From positions 1-64,000 of the forward strand of contig NZ_JARNTW010000002.1 of the NCBI RefSeq assembly GCF_029433105.1: a DNA stretch of 64,000 nt, given 5' to 3'. Position 1 is the first letter of the stretch. Every line of letters starts with the position of its first letter. The notes beneath the pieces were generated by a model, which was given only the letters and a program-made list of their open reading frames with translations, made no database searches and was not told the DNA's origin. The position numbers were made by a program, and so were the translations under genes. Origin of the DNA: Runella sp. MFBS21 (GTDB lineage Bacteria; Bacteroidota; Bacteroidia; Cytophagales; Spirosomataceae). Of this stretch, positions 1,130 to 34,880 are shown one piece after another.

Positions 1130-2389
1130 ATGCCTTCGATTTCTAAAAATCCCTTACTTTCCGAAGACTGGACGGTAGTAGTATTGGGCTTTGCAATTTT
1201 ATTGATTACTCTTGCTGGCTTTGTATTGCCCGTACCTACCTTTGGTTGGGAAAGTACTTCCGATCTGTTTGAAAAAGTACTTTCTTTGAAAAATCTACAA
1301 ATCATTCTTATTCAACTCATTGCAGTTGTGGTAATCGCGATTGCCGGTGCTTCACTGACGGGTAAAGAAATAAAGCCTTTTTTGATCGGCTTGCCTGTTG
1401 TCTATTTTTTAACCATTATTGCCCTCATCATTGCGGGAAACAGCGGTGTAAAATCCATTAATCTGGAAGCGGTGATTTTCAGTTTGGCGATTGGGCTGGT
1501 GATAGGCAATCTTGTGAAACTACCCAATTGGCTCAAATCAGCACTTTCTACCGAAGTATTTGTAAAAATCGGACTAGTACTTTTGGGAACCACCATTATC
1601 TTCTCCGATATTCTTAAAGCAGGTTCTTTAGGGTTGATTCAAGCACTGATTGTGGTGATTTCGGTCTGGTATTTTGCGTTTTGGGTTTCCAAAAAACTGG
1701 GCATCGACGAAGAGCTTTCTCTCATTATTTCGAGTGCCGTTTCTATTTGCGGGGTTTCGGCGGCTATTGCTACGGCGGGCGCCATCAAAGGGGATTCAAA
1801 AAAACTTTCCTATGTTATTTCGTTAGTATTGATTGTGGCAGTGCCTATGATGATTTTTCAGCCTTACATTGCCAAATGGTTGGGGCTTTCGGAAGAAGTA
1901 ACAGGAGCTTGGCTGGGCGGTACTATTGACACCACTGGCGCAGTAGCCGCCGCAGGTACGTTGGTGGGAGAAACGGCCCTGAAAATCAGTACTATTGTTA
2001 AGTTCTCGCAAAATGTTCTCTTAGGCGTCGCTGCCTTTGCCATTTCTGTTTACTGGACGTATACCAACCACCCCTTGGCCAAAGATAAAGATACAAAACC
2101 AACGGCGGGTATTATTTGGGAACGCTTTCCCAAGTTTGTTATCGGTTTTTTGGCTGCTTCGGTACTGTTTTCGTTTTTCCTTACTCCCGAAACGGTCAAT
2201 AATGTCAAGGGAAGTCTTAAAAATTTACAGGGACTATGGTTTGCGTTGGCATTTACAAGCATTGGCCTCGAGACCAATTTTTCAGATCTATTCAATGCTG
2301 AAAACAAAAAACCGCTCTATGCCTTTTTGATCGCCCAAATCTTTAATATTTTCATCACTTTGGCAGTTTCGTATTTTCTCTTTCGCTAA
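1130..2389 (+). CDS. YeiH-family putative sulfate exporter (UPF0324)
   Basis: A 419-residue polytopic membrane protein with about ten hydrophobic helices. It carries the family segments GVSAAIATAGAI (about residues 205-216) and GGTIDTTGAVAAAG (about 263-276) followed by KFSQNVLLG, which place it in the YeiH/UPF0324 (Cons_hypoth698) family. Members are annotated as putative sulfate exporters, but transport has hardly been tested, so the substrate is unproven. The ATG at 1130 follows an AT-rich leader with no competing upstream start. It stands alone: the next gene on the same strand begins 132 bases later and is unrelated. Confidence 0.85.
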   Translation: MPSISKNPLLSEDWTVVVLGFAILLITLAGFVLPVPTFGWESTSDLFEKVLSLKNLQIILIQLIAVVVIAIAGASLTGKEIKPFLIGLPVVYFLTIIALIIAGNSGVKSINLEAVIFSLAIGLVIGNLVKLPNWLKSALSTEVFVKIGLVLLGTTIIFSDILKAGSLGLIQALIVVISVWYFAFWVSKKLGIDEELSLIISSAVSICGVSAAIATAGAIKGDSKKLSYVISLVLIVAVPMMIFQPYIAKWLGLSEEVTGAWLGGTIDTTGAVAAAGTLVGETALKISTIVKFSQNVLLGVAAFAISVYWTYTNHPLAKDKDTKPTAGIIWERFPKFVIGFLAASVLFSFFLTPETVNNVKGSLKNLQGLWFALAFTSIGLETNFSDLFNAENKKPLYAFLIAQIFNIFITLAVSYFLFR

Positions 2390-29623: not shown

Positions 29624-30589
29624 ATGAAGTACATAAAAAAACTAAGGGTGCTTTTGATGGTTTGGGGAAGTAGCCTTGCAGTTTATGGACAAGTAGCGAC
29701 TTTAAACACCAGCCAACGATGGCTGCTTTTGACTGAGCAATCCCAGCACCGACTTTTGGTAGTGGATGTAGACAACGGAAAAGAGGTATGGGAGTGGAAA
29801 CCCGAAGCCTCAAATGTAAAGCCCGAACACGTCAAATGGTTTTCGAATCCTAGTGATGCCAAAGTGGTATACAATGGCGAATATGTTATCACTTGTGCCT
29901 CTGGTGGTGGAATTGCTTTGATTAGGGTGAAAGACAAAAAAACGGTGTTCTATGCCTATGCAGGAGGCAATACACATTCGGTAGAAGTATTGCCCGATGG
30001 TAATCTCGTAAGTGCTTCTAGTACTGGAAATTATCTTTCTGTTTTTTCAATAGACACTTTACGTTTTCCCGACCATGTATACCGAAAAGACTTGTTTATC
30101 CCCTCAGGCCATAATGTGGTTTGGGATCGTACCCAGCATTTGCTGTGGTCGGCTGGGATGAATACCCTATACGCTTATCAGTACAATTTTAATCGTGCTA
30201 CTCCCCAGCTTCGGCAGATTGATTCGTTGATGTTTTCGTCTACCCGTACAGAAGCTCATGATTTGTTTCCTCTAAAGGGTGTTGACAAACTTTGGTTGAC
30301 TGATTTGACAAATGTGTATATTTTTGAAACCCATAGCCGAGCATTGCAAAAGGTAAGTGGGCCTGCACATGTCAAAAGTGTAAGCTCCCGAAAGGAAGAT
30401 AATGAAGTGGCGATTAGTCATCCAAAGCAATCGTGGTGGACCGACGAAATACAGGATTTGAATGGCAAACGAATCTATCAGAAGGAAGGGTTAAAAATTT
30501 ATAAAGCACGCTGGTGTGTTCTAAATTCCTTTAGTTATCCTCCAAACCACTCTTTGAAATATACCAGCTTGCCTATATCTAAACCTTAA
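29624..30589 (+). CDS. Exported beta-propeller-like protein (DUF6528-type)
   Basis: A 321-residue protein with a signal peptide (about 1-23, ending VYGQ). It shows repeated short beta blades such as RLLVVDVDNGKEVWEWKP, GIALIRVKDKKTVFYAYAG and VLPDGNLVSASSTGNYLSVF, typical of a six- or seven-bladed propeller. The closest family I can name is DUF6528, at moderate certainty; function is unknown. It precedes the two-component pair by 33 bases and may share its transcript. Confidence 0.7.
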   Translation: MKYIKKLRVLLMVWGSSLAVYGQVATLNTSQRWLLLTEQSQHRLLVVDVDNGKEVWEWKPEASNVKPEHVKWFSNPSDAKVVYNGEYVITCASGGGIALIRVKDKKTVFYAYAGGNTHSVEVLPDGNLVSASSTGNYLSVFSIDTLRFPDHVYRKDLFIPSGHNVVWDRTQHLLWSAGMNTLYAYQYNFNRATPQLRQIDSLMFSSTRTEAHDLFPLKGVDKLWLTDLTNVYIFETHSRALQKVSGPAHVKSVSSRKEDNEVAISHPKQSWWTDEIQDLNGKRIYQKEGLKIYKARWCVLNSFSYPPNHSLKYTSLPISKP

Positions 30590-30622: not shown

Positions 30623-31312
30623 ATGGAAAATACGGCGCAGTTGTTATTAGTAGAAGATGAATCTAAAGTCGCAGCATTCATAAAAAAAGGCCTCGAAAGG
30701 CAGGGTTTTAAAGTAGATATTGCGGAAGACGGCCGGCTTGGAAAACAGTTTTTTGATGAACGTACCTACGATTTGCTAATTTTTGATGTCAATCTTCCCT
30801 ACATGGATGGGGTAGAACTCGCTGCTTATGTGCGGACCAAAAATACTCAGATCCCCATTTTGATGTTGACGGCCTTGGATACCACTGCCGACAAACTAGC
30901 GGGATTTGATGCGGGCGTGGACGATTATTTGGTGAAGCCTTTTGACTTTATGGAGTTGATTGCGCGTCTCAAAGCATTGCTCAAACGCGTAATCAAAACC
31001 AGTGAATCTACGAATATTTTGAAAGTAGCCGATTTGGAATTGGATTTAGATCAGAAAATAGCGCGGCGAGGCGGGCAAGCCTTTGAGCTTACGGCCAAAG
31101 AATTTGCGCTTTTGGAATATCTGATGCGCAATCGGGGTAGAGTCGTATCTAAGATTGATATTGCCGAGAAAGTATGGGATATTGATTTTGATACCGGTAC
31201 CAACTTTATAGAAGTCTATATCAATTATTTACGGAAAAAAATCGATAAAGATGCCTCTTCCAAATTGATCCATACGGTAGTGGGCATGGGCTATACCCTT
31301 AAAGAAAAATGA
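30623..31312 (+). CDS. OmpR/PhoB-type response regulator
   Basis: A 229-residue regulator with a receiver domain (acidic pocket VEDES, phosphoacceptor Asp55 in IFDVNLPYMDG, Lys in LVKPFDF) and a winged-helix DNA-binding domain (FELTAKEFALLEYLMRNRG; then VYINYLRKKIDK and VVGMGYTLK). Proteins of this class bind tandem direct repeats spaced by about one helical turn. The kinase gene overlaps its end by four bases. The repeat-bearing promoters at 33.0-34.2 kb are its obvious candidate targets. Confidence 0.95.
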   Translation: MENTAQLLLVEDESKVAAFIKKGLERQGFKVDIAEDGRLGKQFFDERTYDLLIFDVNLPYMDGVELAAYVRTKNTQIPILMLTALDTTADKLAGFDAGVDDYLVKPFDFMELIARLKALLKRVIKTSESTNILKVADLELDLDQKIARRGGQAFELTAKEFALLEYLMRNRGRVVSKIDIAEKVWDIDFDTGTNFIEVYINYLRKKIDKDASSKLIHTVVGMGYTLKEK

Positions 31313-32673
31313 CAATTCGAAATCGTCTTACGGCACTTTTTACGGCAGTAGTGTCGGTGTTGCTACTATTGTTTTGTATTGTCATTTACTTTTTTGCAGA
31401 ATATCATCGGCAAGAGGAGTTTTTTAAACGCTTGCGAGAAGAGGCACGAACTACGGTGGAGTTGCTTTTTGATAAAGAAACCATTAGTCCTGAATTGCTC
31501 AAATTGCTGGATCGCAACCAAATGACGGTACTTCATCAAGAGGAAATCATTGTTTATGATTATCAAAATAAGCTTCGCTATGAGAGCGGAACCGATTATC
31601 TCAATATCGATAAAGCTACCCTCGACCGGGTCAGGGTAGAAAAAGAAGTACGATGGCGCGAAGGACAGCGGGAGATTGTGGGAATTTATGTGGTAGATCG
31701 CCAAAACCGCTTTGTGGTTTTTGGCTCAGGGATAGACAAGTACGGTTTTAGAGAGGTTCAAAACCTTGCGCTTGTGATGGCAATTGGGTGGTTTTTGGCT
31801 ACTATGGTGGTCGCTGTGGTAGGATGGATATATGCTTATCGGGCTTTGGAGCCTCTCAAAAAACTCATCGCACGAGTAGACGATATCACTGCTTCACGAC
31901 TAGATTTACGGGTAGAAGTGTCTAATAGCCAAGATGAAATAGGGCAGCTTGCCGAGCGCTTCAATCATATGCTTGATCGTTTGGAAGATGCTTTTCGAAT
32001 GCAGAGAGCTTTCGTTTCGAATGCATCCCATGAGCTTCGCACACCACTTACGGCTATCACGGGGCAAATAGAGGTAGCACTTATGGACAACGATCCTCAA
32101 GAATGGCAAGATACATTGCGCTCAGTATTAGAAGACGCTCGTCAGCTCAATCGCCTTTCCAATGGGCTATTGTCTTTGGCAAAGGTGAGTATGGACGAAT
32201 CGGCGGTGAAATTTACGCCAGTGGCTATTGACGAAATATTTTGGCAAGTGCGAAGCGAAATCATGAAAGCGCATCCCAAATTTAGCGTAAGAGTCGATTT
32301 AGAAGGGTTTTCGAATGATGCAGCACGTTTTGAGGTGATGGGCAACGAACCTTTACTGCGAGTGGCATTGACTAATTTTATGGAAAATGGCTGTAAATTT
32401 TCGCCCAATCATACGGTCAATGTAAAGTTTAATAATCTTCCTAATACTTTAGAAATCCAGTTTCACAATATAGGGCCAGTGATTCCGGCCGATGAGCTAC
32501 CACATATCTTCAAACCTTTTCGGCGAGCTACCAATGCCCGCCAAGTAGCAGGACATGGCATAGGGCTATCGCTCACAGAGCGTATTGTAAGGCTACACCG
32601 AGGAAGAGTGGTAGTAGAATCAGAAGAACCCAAAGGCACCACTTTTACCTTGGTTCTTCCCCATAAGTTTTAG
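31309..32673 (+). CDS. Sensor histidine kinase with HAMP domain
   Basis: A 454-residue membrane kinase, ATG overlapping the regulator stop (ATGA). Two membrane helices (about residues 9-29 and 152-174) bracket a sensor region of about 120 residues; then HAMP (about 175-230), HisKA with His in FVSNASHELRTPLTAITG (about residue 243) and HATPase (MENGCKFSPNH; GHGIGLSLTERIV; GTTFTLVLP). The signal is unknown. It pairs with the upstream OmpR-type regulator. Confidence 0.95.
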   Translation: MTIRNRLTALFTAVVSVLLLLFCIVIYFFAEYHRQEEFFKRLREEARTTVELLFDKETISPELLKLLDRNQMTVLHQEEIIVYDYQNKLRYESGTDYLNIDKATLDRVRVEKEVRWREGQREIVGIYVVDRQNRFVVFGSGIDKYGFREVQNLALVMAIGWFLATMVVAVVGWIYAYRALEPLKKLIARVDDITASRLDLRVEVSNSQDEIGQLAERFNHMLDRLEDAFRMQRAFVSNASHELRTPLTAITGQIEVALMDNDPQEWQDTLRSVLEDARQLNRLSNGLLSLAKVSMDESAVKFTPVAIDEIFWQVRSEIMKAHPKFSVRVDLEGFSNDAARFEVMGNEPLLRVALTNFMENGCKFSPNHTVNVKFNNLPNTLEIQFHNIGPVIPADELPHIFKPFRRATNARQVAGHGIGLSLTERIVRLHRGRVVVESEEPKGTTFTLVLPHKF

Positions 32674-33042: not shown

Positions 33043-33100
33043 TTCTAATGTGATTCTAATACTGAGCTAAGTTGGTTCTAATGTTGAGGCCTTAGTTTTG
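33043..33100 (+). promoter_or_regulatory. Regulated promoter 1: four 11-bp-phased repeats plus -33/-7
   Basis: TTCTAAT occurs at 33043, 33054 and 33076, with a degenerate copy (AGCTAAG) at 33065, giving four units exactly 11 bases apart. TTG at 33072-33074 and TAGTTTTG at 33093-33100 form a Bacteroidota promoter with an 18-base spacer. The last repeat begins 17 bases before the -7 box. The arrangement is that expected for activation by a tandem-binding OmpR/PhoB-type regulator. It drives the HNYK-repeat gene at 33195 through a leader of about 90 bases. Confidence 0.75.
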
Positions 33101-33194
33101 CAATGTCAAAAGACAAACAGATAGTAGCAAAAAAGCTACGCTGTGTATTCCAAAAACAGATAAGTATTCCATTATATAAAAATCAGAAATTACG

Positions 33195-33593
33195 ATGAAA
33201 ACGTTCGTTCATATTCTTATAGCATTTGTATTGGTAGGTAGCACTGTAGCTGTAGCTCAGAGCAGCCTCAACTCCCCTCATAACTACAAGCGCCCGGTGA
33301 GTCAGAAATCTTCTAAAAGCGAAAATGCGCTAGTAGTTTCAGCCGAGCAGCGAGCAGTCCCGTTGAAGTTGCAAAACAACGTAGCTTCGGCTCACAACTA
33401 TAAGCGTCAAGGTGGAGCTAGTGTAGAGAAAGAGGCAACACTCGTATTGGCGAGTCCAGTGATAGGTCCTGTGCCGCAAAATCCGTTGTTGTTGCCTAAT
33501 CACTACAAGAGCCAAAAGCCGATGAAAGTAGAAGAAAGAGTAGCGCGGAAGGTAGTATTGCCGGAGGCTCCCAAAGATAGTTTGAGCAAGTAA
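33195..33593 (+). CDS. Secreted HNYK-repeat small protein, copy 1
   Basis: A 132-residue protein of no family I recognise. A signal peptide (about 1-21, ending AVAQ) is followed by about 110 residues with three degenerate repeats of roughly 37 residues, each opening with an HNYK-like motif: SPHNYKRP (27-34), SAHNYKRQ (65-72) and PNHYKSQKP (101-109). The mature part is basic and low in aromatic residues other than the motif Tyr, and no cysteine is present. It has its own promoter and terminator and a close paralogue at 34311. Confidence 0.8.
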   Translation: MKTFVHILIAFVLVGSTVAVAQSSLNSPHNYKRPVSQKSSKSENALVVSAEQRAVPLKLQNNVASAHNYKRQGGASVEKEATLVLASPVIGPVPQNPLLLPNHYKSQKPMKVEERVARKVVLPEAPKDSLSK

Positions 33594-33709
33594 ATTGCTC
33601 CTGGGGGTGGTCACAAGAAATTGCCCCCAAACCAAATTAAAAAGCACGATTCTTTTTCCATCCATACCATTGTTATTTAGTTTAGATTAGAAAACTGGTT
33701 TAAAGACAA

Positions 33710-33745
33710 ACAGCCTCGAAGAGTTTTCTTCGGGGCTGTTTTTTG
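33710..33745 (+). terminator. Intrinsic terminator of HNYK unit 1
   Basis: A 13-bp stem (ACAGCCTCGAAGA with TCTTCGGGGCTGT, two G-U pairs) and a GTTT loop are followed by six T. The 3' untranslated stretch before it (from CCCAAACCAAATT to GGTTTAAAGACAAA) is also conserved at the second copy. Confidence 0.88.
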
Positions 33746-33796
33746 GCAGTCATGCCTTCGAAATTTCCTTTGCTTATGTGAAGATTGTATAAAAGC

Positions 33797-33854
33797 TTCT
33801 AAGGAAATTCTAATGTAAGTCTAAGTTGGGTCTAATGAGGGCTAGATAACTTTG
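33797..33854 (+). promoter_or_regulatory. Regulated promoter 2: four 11-bp-phased repeats plus -33/-7
   Basis: Units at 33797 (TTCTAAG), 33808 (TTCTAAT), 33819 (GTCTAAG) and 33830 (GTCTAAT), each 11 bases apart. TTG at 33826-33828 and TAACTTTG at 33847-33854 give the same 18-base spacer, and the same 17-base distance from last repeat to -7, as promoter 1. The 58-base span is identical although the surrounding sequence is unrelated to the duplicated units. It drives the gene at 33876. Confidence 0.75.
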
Positions 33855-33875
33855 TCACATTTAATTTTCAAAATT

Positions 33876-34160
33876 ATGGCACGCTATTCTCTTGATTATT
33901 CATTCAAAAACACATTTCCTAGCCCGCCTCAGAAGCGTAATTACGGCTTGATGTGGGGGATAGGTATGTTGTTGTTTGCGTTTTTGTTTTTCGGAGGAAT
34001 CGGAACCGCATTTCATTTCCGAAACTCTCATTTATCGTTAGTGAAAGCTCATAATAGACTGAAAGTGAGTTATGATTCGCTTCATTCGGCCAAACAACAC
34101 GCCGACTATCAACTCTATGAAATGAAAGCTAAATTGCAGCAGCTCGGCGGCACACCTTAA
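33876..34160 (+). CDS. Small single-span membrane protein with coiled coil
   Basis: A 94-residue protein, not recognised. Residues about 23-44 form one membrane helix (MWGIGMLLFAFLFFGGIG), preceded by a short polar segment and followed by a helical, coiled-coil-prone tail (about 52-90, KAHNRLKVSYDSLHSAKQ). The ATG at 33876 is preferred to upstream in-frame codons because the -7 box ends at 33854, which puts the transcript start near 33861. It sits between the duplicated HNYK units and carries the same type of promoter. Confidence 0.7.
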   Translation: MARYSLDYSFKNTFPSPPQKRNYGLMWGIGMLLFAFLFFGGIGTAFHFRNSHLSLVKAHNRLKVSYDSLHSAKQHADYQLYEMKAKLQQLGGTP

Positions 34161-34163
34161 AAA

Positions 34164-34221
34164 TTCTAATACCTTTCTAATATTAGCCTAAGTTGCTTCT
34201 AATACCGTCGCCGTAGCTTTG
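34164..34221 (+). promoter_or_regulatory. Regulated promoter 3: four 11-bp-phased repeats plus -33/-7
   Basis: TTCTAAT at 34164, 34175 and 34197, with GCCTAAG at 34186, gives four units 11 bases apart. TTG at 34193-34195 and TAGCTTTG at 34214-34221 repeat the 18-base spacer and 17-base repeat-to--7 distance seen at the other two promoters. It begins four bases after the stop of the previous small gene. It drives HNYK copy 2 with a leader nearly identical to that of copy 1. Confidence 0.75.
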
Positions 34222-34310
34222 CAATGTCAAAAGACAAACAGATAGTAGCAAAAGCTACACTGTGTATTCCAAAAACAGAGAAGTATTCCATTTTAAAATC
34301 AGAGATTATT

Positions 34311-34712
34311 ATGAAAACGTTCGTTCATACCCTTATAGCATTTGTATTTTTAGGTTCGACTGTGGCCATAGCCCAAAGCAGTCTCAATTCTCCACACAAC
34401 TACAAGCGTCCAGTAAGCCAGAAGGTAGCTAAAAGTGAGAGCTCTCTCGTTGTATCAACCGAGGAGCGGGCAGTCCCGTTGAAGATGCAGAACAACATAG
34501 CTTCGGCGCACAATTATAAGCGCCAAGGCGGCGCCAATATAGAGCAAGAAGCAACACTCGTATTGAGTACACCTGTGATAGGACCTGCTCCACAAAATCC
34601 TTTTTTGTCGCCTAATCACTACAAAATTCAGAAACCAATGCCTGTAGAAGAAAGAGTAGCTTATAAAGTGGAAACACCTCCTTCTCAGCTAAAAGATACA
34701 GTGAGCAAATAA
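34311..34712 (+). CDS. Secreted HNYK-repeat small protein, copy 2
   Basis: A 133-residue paralogue of the protein at 33195, about three-quarters identical by eye. Signal peptide (ending AIAQ) and the three motif copies NSPHNYKRP, SAHNYKRQ and PNHYKIQKP are kept. Most changes are conservative and the frame is intact, which suggests both copies are under selection. I start at ATG 34311, where the signal peptide begins; an in-frame ATG at 34224 lies in the leader that is shared with copy 1, where it is not in frame. Confidence 0.8.
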   Translation: MKTFVHTLIAFVFLGSTVAIAQSSLNSPHNYKRPVSQKVAKSESSLVVSTEERAVPLKMQNNIASAHNYKRQGGANIEQEATLVLSTPVIGPAPQNPFLSPNHYKIQKPMPVEERVAYKVETPPSQLKDTVSK

Positions 34713-34828
34713 TTTTGCTCAGGGGTGATTGCTTGCAATTGCCCCAAACCAAATTGTAGCAACGATTCTTTTCCTTCCACACCATTACTATTATTGTTTA
34801 GATTAAAGAACTGGTTTAAAGACAAAAA

Positions 34829-34860
34829 GCCCCGAAGATTTTTCTCCGGGGCGCTTTTTT
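34829..34860 (+). terminator. Intrinsic terminator of HNYK unit 2
   Basis: GCCCCGAAGA and TCTCCGGGGC pair with one mismatch and are followed, after GC, by a run of six T. The position and flanking sequence (GGTTTAAAGACAAA before it) correspond to the terminator of unit 1. Confidence 0.8.
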
Positions 34861-34880
34861 ATGGTCTTATTAGTAATAGC

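Follow-up and report, generated by a model that had tools for sequence, protein, structure and literature searches.

Behind a two-component gene pair of Runella sp. MFBS21 lie three short genes whose promoters carry the same set of phased repeats, and the question that this locus raises is what reads these repeats and to what effect. It touches on an open question of wider scope, how paralogous response regulators avoid one another's sites, and to our knowledge most two-component regulons of the Bacteroidota are unmapped. Direct repeats one helix turn apart are classic sites of OmpR/PhoB-type regulators. Here we examine the three promoters and their setting in the window (the whole 64,000-nucleotide stretch of DNA analysed, to which all positions without a contig name refer), in the whole genome of 7,878,171 bases and in relatives, with 59 genomes being compared in all (its own and 58 others).

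The regulator, its kinase and three short genes

The response regulator gene (30623..31312, forward strand) encodes a receiver domain and a winged-helix DNA-binding domain of the CusR/CzcR-like kind, with a tyrosine, Tyr202, in the recognition helix. Both domains score above their Pfam cut-offs (PF00072 with 93.5 bits and PF00486, Trans_reg_C, with 91.2 bits), the domain content of the OmpR/PhoB family. The best-scoring NCBIfam model is TIGR01387 (CusR/CzcR/CopR), with 241.1 bits against a cut-off of 279.2. The sensor histidine kinase gene (31309..32673, forward strand; Pfam HAMP, HisKA and HATPase_c) overlaps the regulator gene by 4 bases, and its product scores 200.7 bits with TIGR01386, under the cut-off of 292.55. 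A gene for a DUF6528 protein (29624-30589) is located directly 5' of the regulator gene. No repeat array was found in the 1.8 kb that precede the regulator gene; some relatives do have one there.

The gene pair is followed by three short genes on the same forward strand, each with its own promoter. Target 1 (33195..33593) is an open reading frame for a protein of 132 amino acids with HNYK motifs and, judged by eye, a probable signal peptide; it has no Pfam match above the cut-off and no NCBIfam match, although relatives exist in Runella and R. zeae DSM 19591 encodes an HNYK protein that is 93% identical. Target 3 (34311..34712, read from an inner ATG of its open reading frame) encodes a 133 amino acid paralogue of target 1. 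Target 2 (33876..34160, read from the first ATG downstream) encodes 94 amino acids with one hydrophobic stretch by eye and has no Pfam match. A metal-efflux regulon was considered and found to be unsupported, as the regulator misses the TIGR01387 cut-off and none of the three targets matches a pump family in Pfam or NCBIfam. Past each HNYK gene, one can see by eye an inverted repeat with a stretch of T behind it (33711-33745 and 34827-34862), and these look like intrinsic terminators.

Three promoters of one geometry

The consensus for Bacteroidota promoters comprises a -7 box, TAnnTTTG, and a -33 TTG. All three promoters, which start at 33043, 33797 and 34164 on the forward strand, have a -7 box of this type and extend over 58 bp with four TCTAA-type units at a period of 11 bp. 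In promoter 1 (P1, 33043..33100) the units lie at 33043 (TTCTAAT), 33054 (TTCTAAT), 33065 (AGCTAAG) and 33076 (TTCTAAT), with a TTG at 33072-33074 and the -7 box TAGTTTTG at 33093-33100. Promoter 2 (P2, 33797..33854) has units at 33797 (TTCTAAG), 33808 (TTCTAAT), 33819 (GTCTAAG) and 33830 (GTCTAAT), a TTG at 33826-33828 and the -7 box TAACTTTG at 33847-33854, whilst those of promoter 3 (P3, 34164..34221) are found at 34164 (TTCTAAT), 34175 (TTCTAAT), 34186 (GCCTAAG) and 34197 (TTCTAAT), with the TTG at 34193-34195 and the -7 box TAGCTTTG at 34214-34221. A preliminary description of this DNA had reported four repeats phased at 11 bp, a spacer of 18 bases and a distance of 17 bases from the start of the last repeat to the -7 box; on reading the letters, every position that it named proved right, and both distances are exact in all three promoters.

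P1 and P3, including their leaders, are 82% similar over 91 nt (direct repeat families D1, D3 and D4), and phased AT-rich DNA can bend. The repeats could thus be a bent or extended promoter element that RNA polymerase itself reads, or a by-product of duplication, with no regulator involved. This is scarcely credible: the arrays adjoin regulator genes and their core tracks a regulator residue (see below), and P2 serves an unrelated gene. That the middle promoter belongs to such a gene had been noted before and stands, as target 2 is unlike targets 1 and 3, and its homologues in several other Runella species also lie behind an array. Duplication as the sole cause of the repeats was rejected in view of P2 and the homologous genes that have arrays in other Runella. 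The similarity between the two HNYK genes runs from promoter to start codon, taking in the leaders 33101-33180 and 34222-34300 (repeats D1, D3 and D4), in which a short inverted repeat, GTAGC...GCTAC, is visible by eye; the HNYK leader may be transcribed and have a regulatory or stabilising role.

Rarity of the pattern in the window and the genome

The repeats were scanned for as the pattern TCTAA-N6-TCTAA-N7-CTAA-N6-TCTAA. Exact matches number three in the whole 7.88 Mb genome and are P1, P2 and P3, so the genome-wide occurrence of TCTAA units at an 11-bp period, a point raised in the preliminary description, is confined in its exact form to these promoters. When up to three mismatches are allowed, the genome has 19 matches, where the control with the reversed pattern yields 4, and the window has 4, where 0.09 would be expected by chance and 0 of 100 shuffles reach that number. 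Looser units combined with the -7 box (up to three mismatches) gave 10 matches in the genome and 3 for the control. A scan that presumes no core and demands a perfect TAnnTTTG, run at periods of 10, 11 and 12 over the window and 10 regulator loci, returned P1, P2 and P3 only, all at period 11.

Conservation and linkage to regulator genes

Across the 59 genomes, the pattern with at most one mismatch is found at 71 places, as against one for the reversed pattern. In 13 Runella genomes, a pattern that includes the -7 box has 95 matches with up to two mismatches, its reversed control none. We compared the 71 places with 150 CusR-like regulators, taken from among the matches listed from the 59 genomes and including many orthologues. 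Forty-one places are no more than 6 kb from a listed regulator, where 0.44 would be expected from their share of the DNA, and 40 of them share the strand of the regulator; the 41 represent 27 regulator loci, and some places overlap. Among the other 30, several adjoin an unlisted two-component gene or precede an HNYK gene, and the surroundings of others gave no match to a regulator or kinase.

The same linkage is seen from the side of the regulators. An array was called where units with the core (C/T)TAA(T/G) scored at least 20 of 24 and the -7 box matched in 5 or more of its 6 letters, a threshold chosen on these data. By these criteria 71 of the 150 loci (among the matches listed) have an array and 79 have none, with 0 for reversed, 0 for complement-only and 4 for opposite-strand controls. 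All 12 Runella genes that match the 30623 regulator at E 4e-120 or better among the matches listed, its own genome counted, have an array nearby. A relative, G008, encodes a regulator 99% identical to it (contig C25).

It might be argued that the arrays are sites of one or more other paralogous Tyr202 regulators and that the neighbouring gene does not encode the main binder. Other Tyr202 regulators of the genome do have similar units, for example beside C16:53554, cross-binding is possible because several Tyr-type paralogues share the motif, and there are the arrays around which no regulator or kinase match was found. We regard such a binder as quite improbable, as the genome has its three exact copies all beside the 30623 regulator, 41 of the 71 places lie near listed regulators against 0.44 expected, and the 12 Runella regulators closest to it among the matches listed each have an array in their surroundings. 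The product of the neighbouring gene is our preferred binder.

In other Runella species, arrays are located 5' of homologues of the 94 amino acid protein (94 to 102 amino acids long) and of the HNYK protein, and also 5' of Band_7 and TerB-like genes, the TerB label resting on a score below the cut-off (20.4 vs 24.4 bits for the 120 amino acid target). The HNYK gene of R. limosa and of R. defluvii has an array even though it is separated from the regulator, by some 46 kb or by its place on a different contig. Two arrays of the TCTAA type (G005:C117:4175-4231 and G005:C425:2714-2770) are found in a small Runella genome of 4.3 Mb (570 contigs), in which one TCTAA array stands 5' of an HNYK gene and no close regulator orthologue occurs among the matches listed. 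Several other genes keep company with arrays. A gene of 159 to 162 codons behind some of them reads like a universal-stress protein, with no Pfam match in its first 130 residues; a Runella protein ahead of an array (L067) has a leucine-rich-repeat match, and a like gene is seen by eye behind an array in G019 (L093); and some other array loci carry efflux-like genes, again by eye.

Period and position of the arrays

The period was examined in two ways. In the first, units had to agree with one another on any core, with TAnnTTTG anchored 17 bases after the start of the last unit; a score of 22 of 28 is reached at 25 of the 150 loci (among the matches listed) at period 11 and at 0 to 3 loci at periods 7-10 and 12-16. 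Anchor offsets of 16, 17 and 18 gave 23, 25 and 26 loci at this score. The test does not discriminate between these offsets, as a frame of 7 bases is free to slide, and the value of 17 rests on the second approach, a search for arrays that ignores the -7 box, over 190 loci (the 150 from among the matches listed and 40 hold-out loci described below). Here period 11 is found at 67 of the 190 loci, and each other period from 7 to 16 at 0 or 1. The arrays contain at least two head-to-tail YTAA-type hexamers 11 bp apart, the composition of a PmrA-type box.

In relation to the start of the regulator gene, 118 distinct arrays (chosen with the -7 box) are placed as follows: 68 lie at +1900..2300, 12 at 2300-2800 and 10 further on, the remaining 28 are upstream and none falls at 0..1900. 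In the loci inspected, +2030 to +2110 is just past the kinase gene.

Residue 202 and the core of the repeat

By their core, arrays divide into a TCTAA kind and a TTTAA kind. By majority, the cores of the 71 array-bearing regulators (among the matches listed) are TCTAA in 31 cases, TTTAA in 26 and mixed in 14. When residues 125 to 228 were scanned, only residue 202, in the recognition helix, separated the clear core groups by the rule used: 30 of 31 regulators in the TCTAA group have Tyr202, whilst all 26 in the TTTAA group have Phe (18), Leu (7) or Met (1). Every one of the 14 mixed-core regulators has Tyr202, and because of this tyrosine may tolerate T better than phenylalanine or leucine tolerate C.

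The contrast between tyrosine and phenylalanine was chosen on the first 150 loci, and a prediction was written down before a hold-out set was scanned. This set comprised 40 loci, hand-picked blind to residue 202 and in part from genera already in the first set; 20 of them had been fetched and were as yet unscanned when the prediction was written. An array was found at 19 of the 40 and none at 21 (controls 0, 0 and 3), and by majority all 19 fit the prediction, 12 pairing Tyr with TCTAA and seven pairing Phe or Leu with TTTAA. With both sets pooled and eight ties dropped, 80 of 82 pairs agree and two disagree. In unit 2, 97% of 80 Tyr-type arrays have C as the second core base, and 97% of 38 Phe/Leu/Met-type arrays have T.

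Common descent could also match residue and core. On the best tree, from a quick build that left out residues 190 to 212, residue 202 changes six times and the core eight times. Well-supported branches force just one change of residue 202, and the phylogenetic pair test, with one pair, has no power; since only one change is forced, common descent is only partly excluded as the source of the match. From the letters of regulators and sites, it is most likely that Tyr202 reads the C of TCTAA and that paralogues with Phe or Leu at residue 202 use TTTAA. On balance it seems probable that many paralogous two-component systems of Runella, its family and some more distant relatives have in common a rigid architecture of four 11-bp units at a distance from TAnnTTTG that is exact to the base, that a one-residue code partly separates them and that a regulator and its sites change in step during evolution.

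Elsewhere in the genome, this geometry recurs in arrays of the TTTAA type (G000:C9:76779-76835, C12:163793-163849, C12:473255-473311 and C12:429793-429849). The C9 array lies 2 kb past the start of a Phe202 regulator and that at C12:429793 lies 2.65 kb past a Leu202 regulator. The surroundings of the arrays at C12:163793 and C12:473255 (L272 and L273) gave neither a regulator nor a kinase match, and for this reason these two may act in trans.

How the arrays may act

The search that ignored the -7 box yielded 128 arrays with a score of at least 21. Within -40..+80 of the start of the last unit, 58 of these have a perfect TAnnTTTG and 70 have none, and 46 of the 60 boxes so found lie exactly 17 bases past that start. 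A fixed distance with cover of the -35/-33 region is the arrangement of a class II activator site. The preliminary description had also placed a -33 TTG between repeats 3 and 4; this holds for the three promoters of the window and fails as a conserved feature, as TTG is in place in 10 of 80 distinct Tyr-type arrays and 1 of 38 Phe/Leu/Met-type arrays. We therefore dropped it from the architecture as a local feature.

These figures also bear on the direction of control. A protein bound to the array would sit on the -33 region and could keep sigma out, and the regulator might act in this way as a repressor that blocks polymerase. Repression is possible but less likely than class-II-type activation, and we judge it unlikely: repressor sites need not hold a fixed distance to the -7 box, and both the distance kept in 46 of 60 cases and the rarity of the -33 TTG are as expected of an activator that takes the place of the -33 contact.

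We consider it very likely that each 58-bp element is an array for two tandem dimers of the 30623 regulator, which is predicted to activate the three genes once phosphorylated by the 31309 kinase. A tandem site of the OmpR/PhoB type had been proposed in outline for this regulator, and the linkage (71 of 150 loci, among the matches listed), the conservation and the covariation of core and residue lend it support. Geometry, conservation, linkage and covariation are read directly from sequence, and from them we infer binding, a tetramer, activation and a signal. Two phosphorylated dimers would occupy the four units on the same face of the DNA, with one winged-helix domain on each TCTAA(T/G) unit. 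The last unit, 17 bases ahead of the -7 box, would place a domain over the -33 region; because there is no conserved TTG under this unit, the regulator probably takes over a contact usually made by sigma. The bound regulator would thus replace the missing -33 element and recruit RNA polymerase by class-II-type activation, a step argued from position. Phosphorylation by the 31309 kinase would then turn on the two HNYK genes and the gene for the 94 amino acid protein together.

Comparison with known systems

Among the top matches in the open-access literature, we found no paper on the array motif or on the Runella regulators. Tandem 11-bp repeats for OmpR/PhoB regulators are already known; as far as searches show, the novelty lies in a rigid four-unit form tied to the -7 boxes of Bacteroidota, in its occurrence across many paralogous systems and in the code at residue 202. 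With a fixed architecture, candidate targets can be read from raw genomes, and two HNYK proteins and a 94 amino acid protein, which match no family above the cut-off, gain a candidate regulon. Residue 202, for which a solved structure shows a corresponding contact, offers a testable specificity switch over many natural pairs of regulator and site.

Likeness to CusR, CopR and PcoR goes as far as the best-scoring model, yet the regulator stays below its cut-off and none of the three targets matches a pump family. Among solved structures, PcoR matches the DNA-binding domain best, and it has an arginine at the place of Tyr202. The sites of Escherichia coli CusR are described as inverted repeats. 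In class II activation by PhoB, tandem 11-bp repeats end beside a core promoter element, with the pho box at -35. The pho box sequence is quoted in PMC4832192 as CTGTCAT(A/T)4CTGTCAT. PhoB sites differ from the Runella arrays in core motif, unit number and promoter class.

The PmrA (BasR) box of Enterobacteriaceae has tandem head-to-tail half-sites, CTTAAT and CCTAAG, separated by five base pairs (PMC3973317), and resembles the Runella arrays in its YTAA-kind hexamers and OmpR/PhoB-family regulator. PmrA makes a base-specific contact through Asn196 in helix 8, and the spacing of the residues named in PMC4660055, rather than an alignment, puts Asn196 at the place of Tyr202. The two systems differ in having two half-sites as against four and Asn as against Tyr or Phe. 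PmrA promoters are also of a class other than the Bacteroidota type.

A parallel for residue 202 is found in Mycobacterium tuberculosis PhoP, whose Tyr220 aligns with Tyr202 with no gap up to that point. According to PMC4832192, Tyr220 hydrogen-bonds the C of TCACAGC and the 7-bp motifs are separated by a 4-bp spacer to give a period of 11; the paper also mentions that binding can extend to trimers and tetramers given proper repeats. PhoP differs in the motif after TC, in that its complex was solved with two units, and in being only distantly similar as a regulator. By inference from this analogy, the base equivalent to the PhoP-contacted C would be the C of TCTAAT. Phenylalanine and leucine have no hydroxyl group, and the change from C to T in the core fits these residues for that reason. 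Residue 202 had been singled out by sequence before the PhoP contact came to light.
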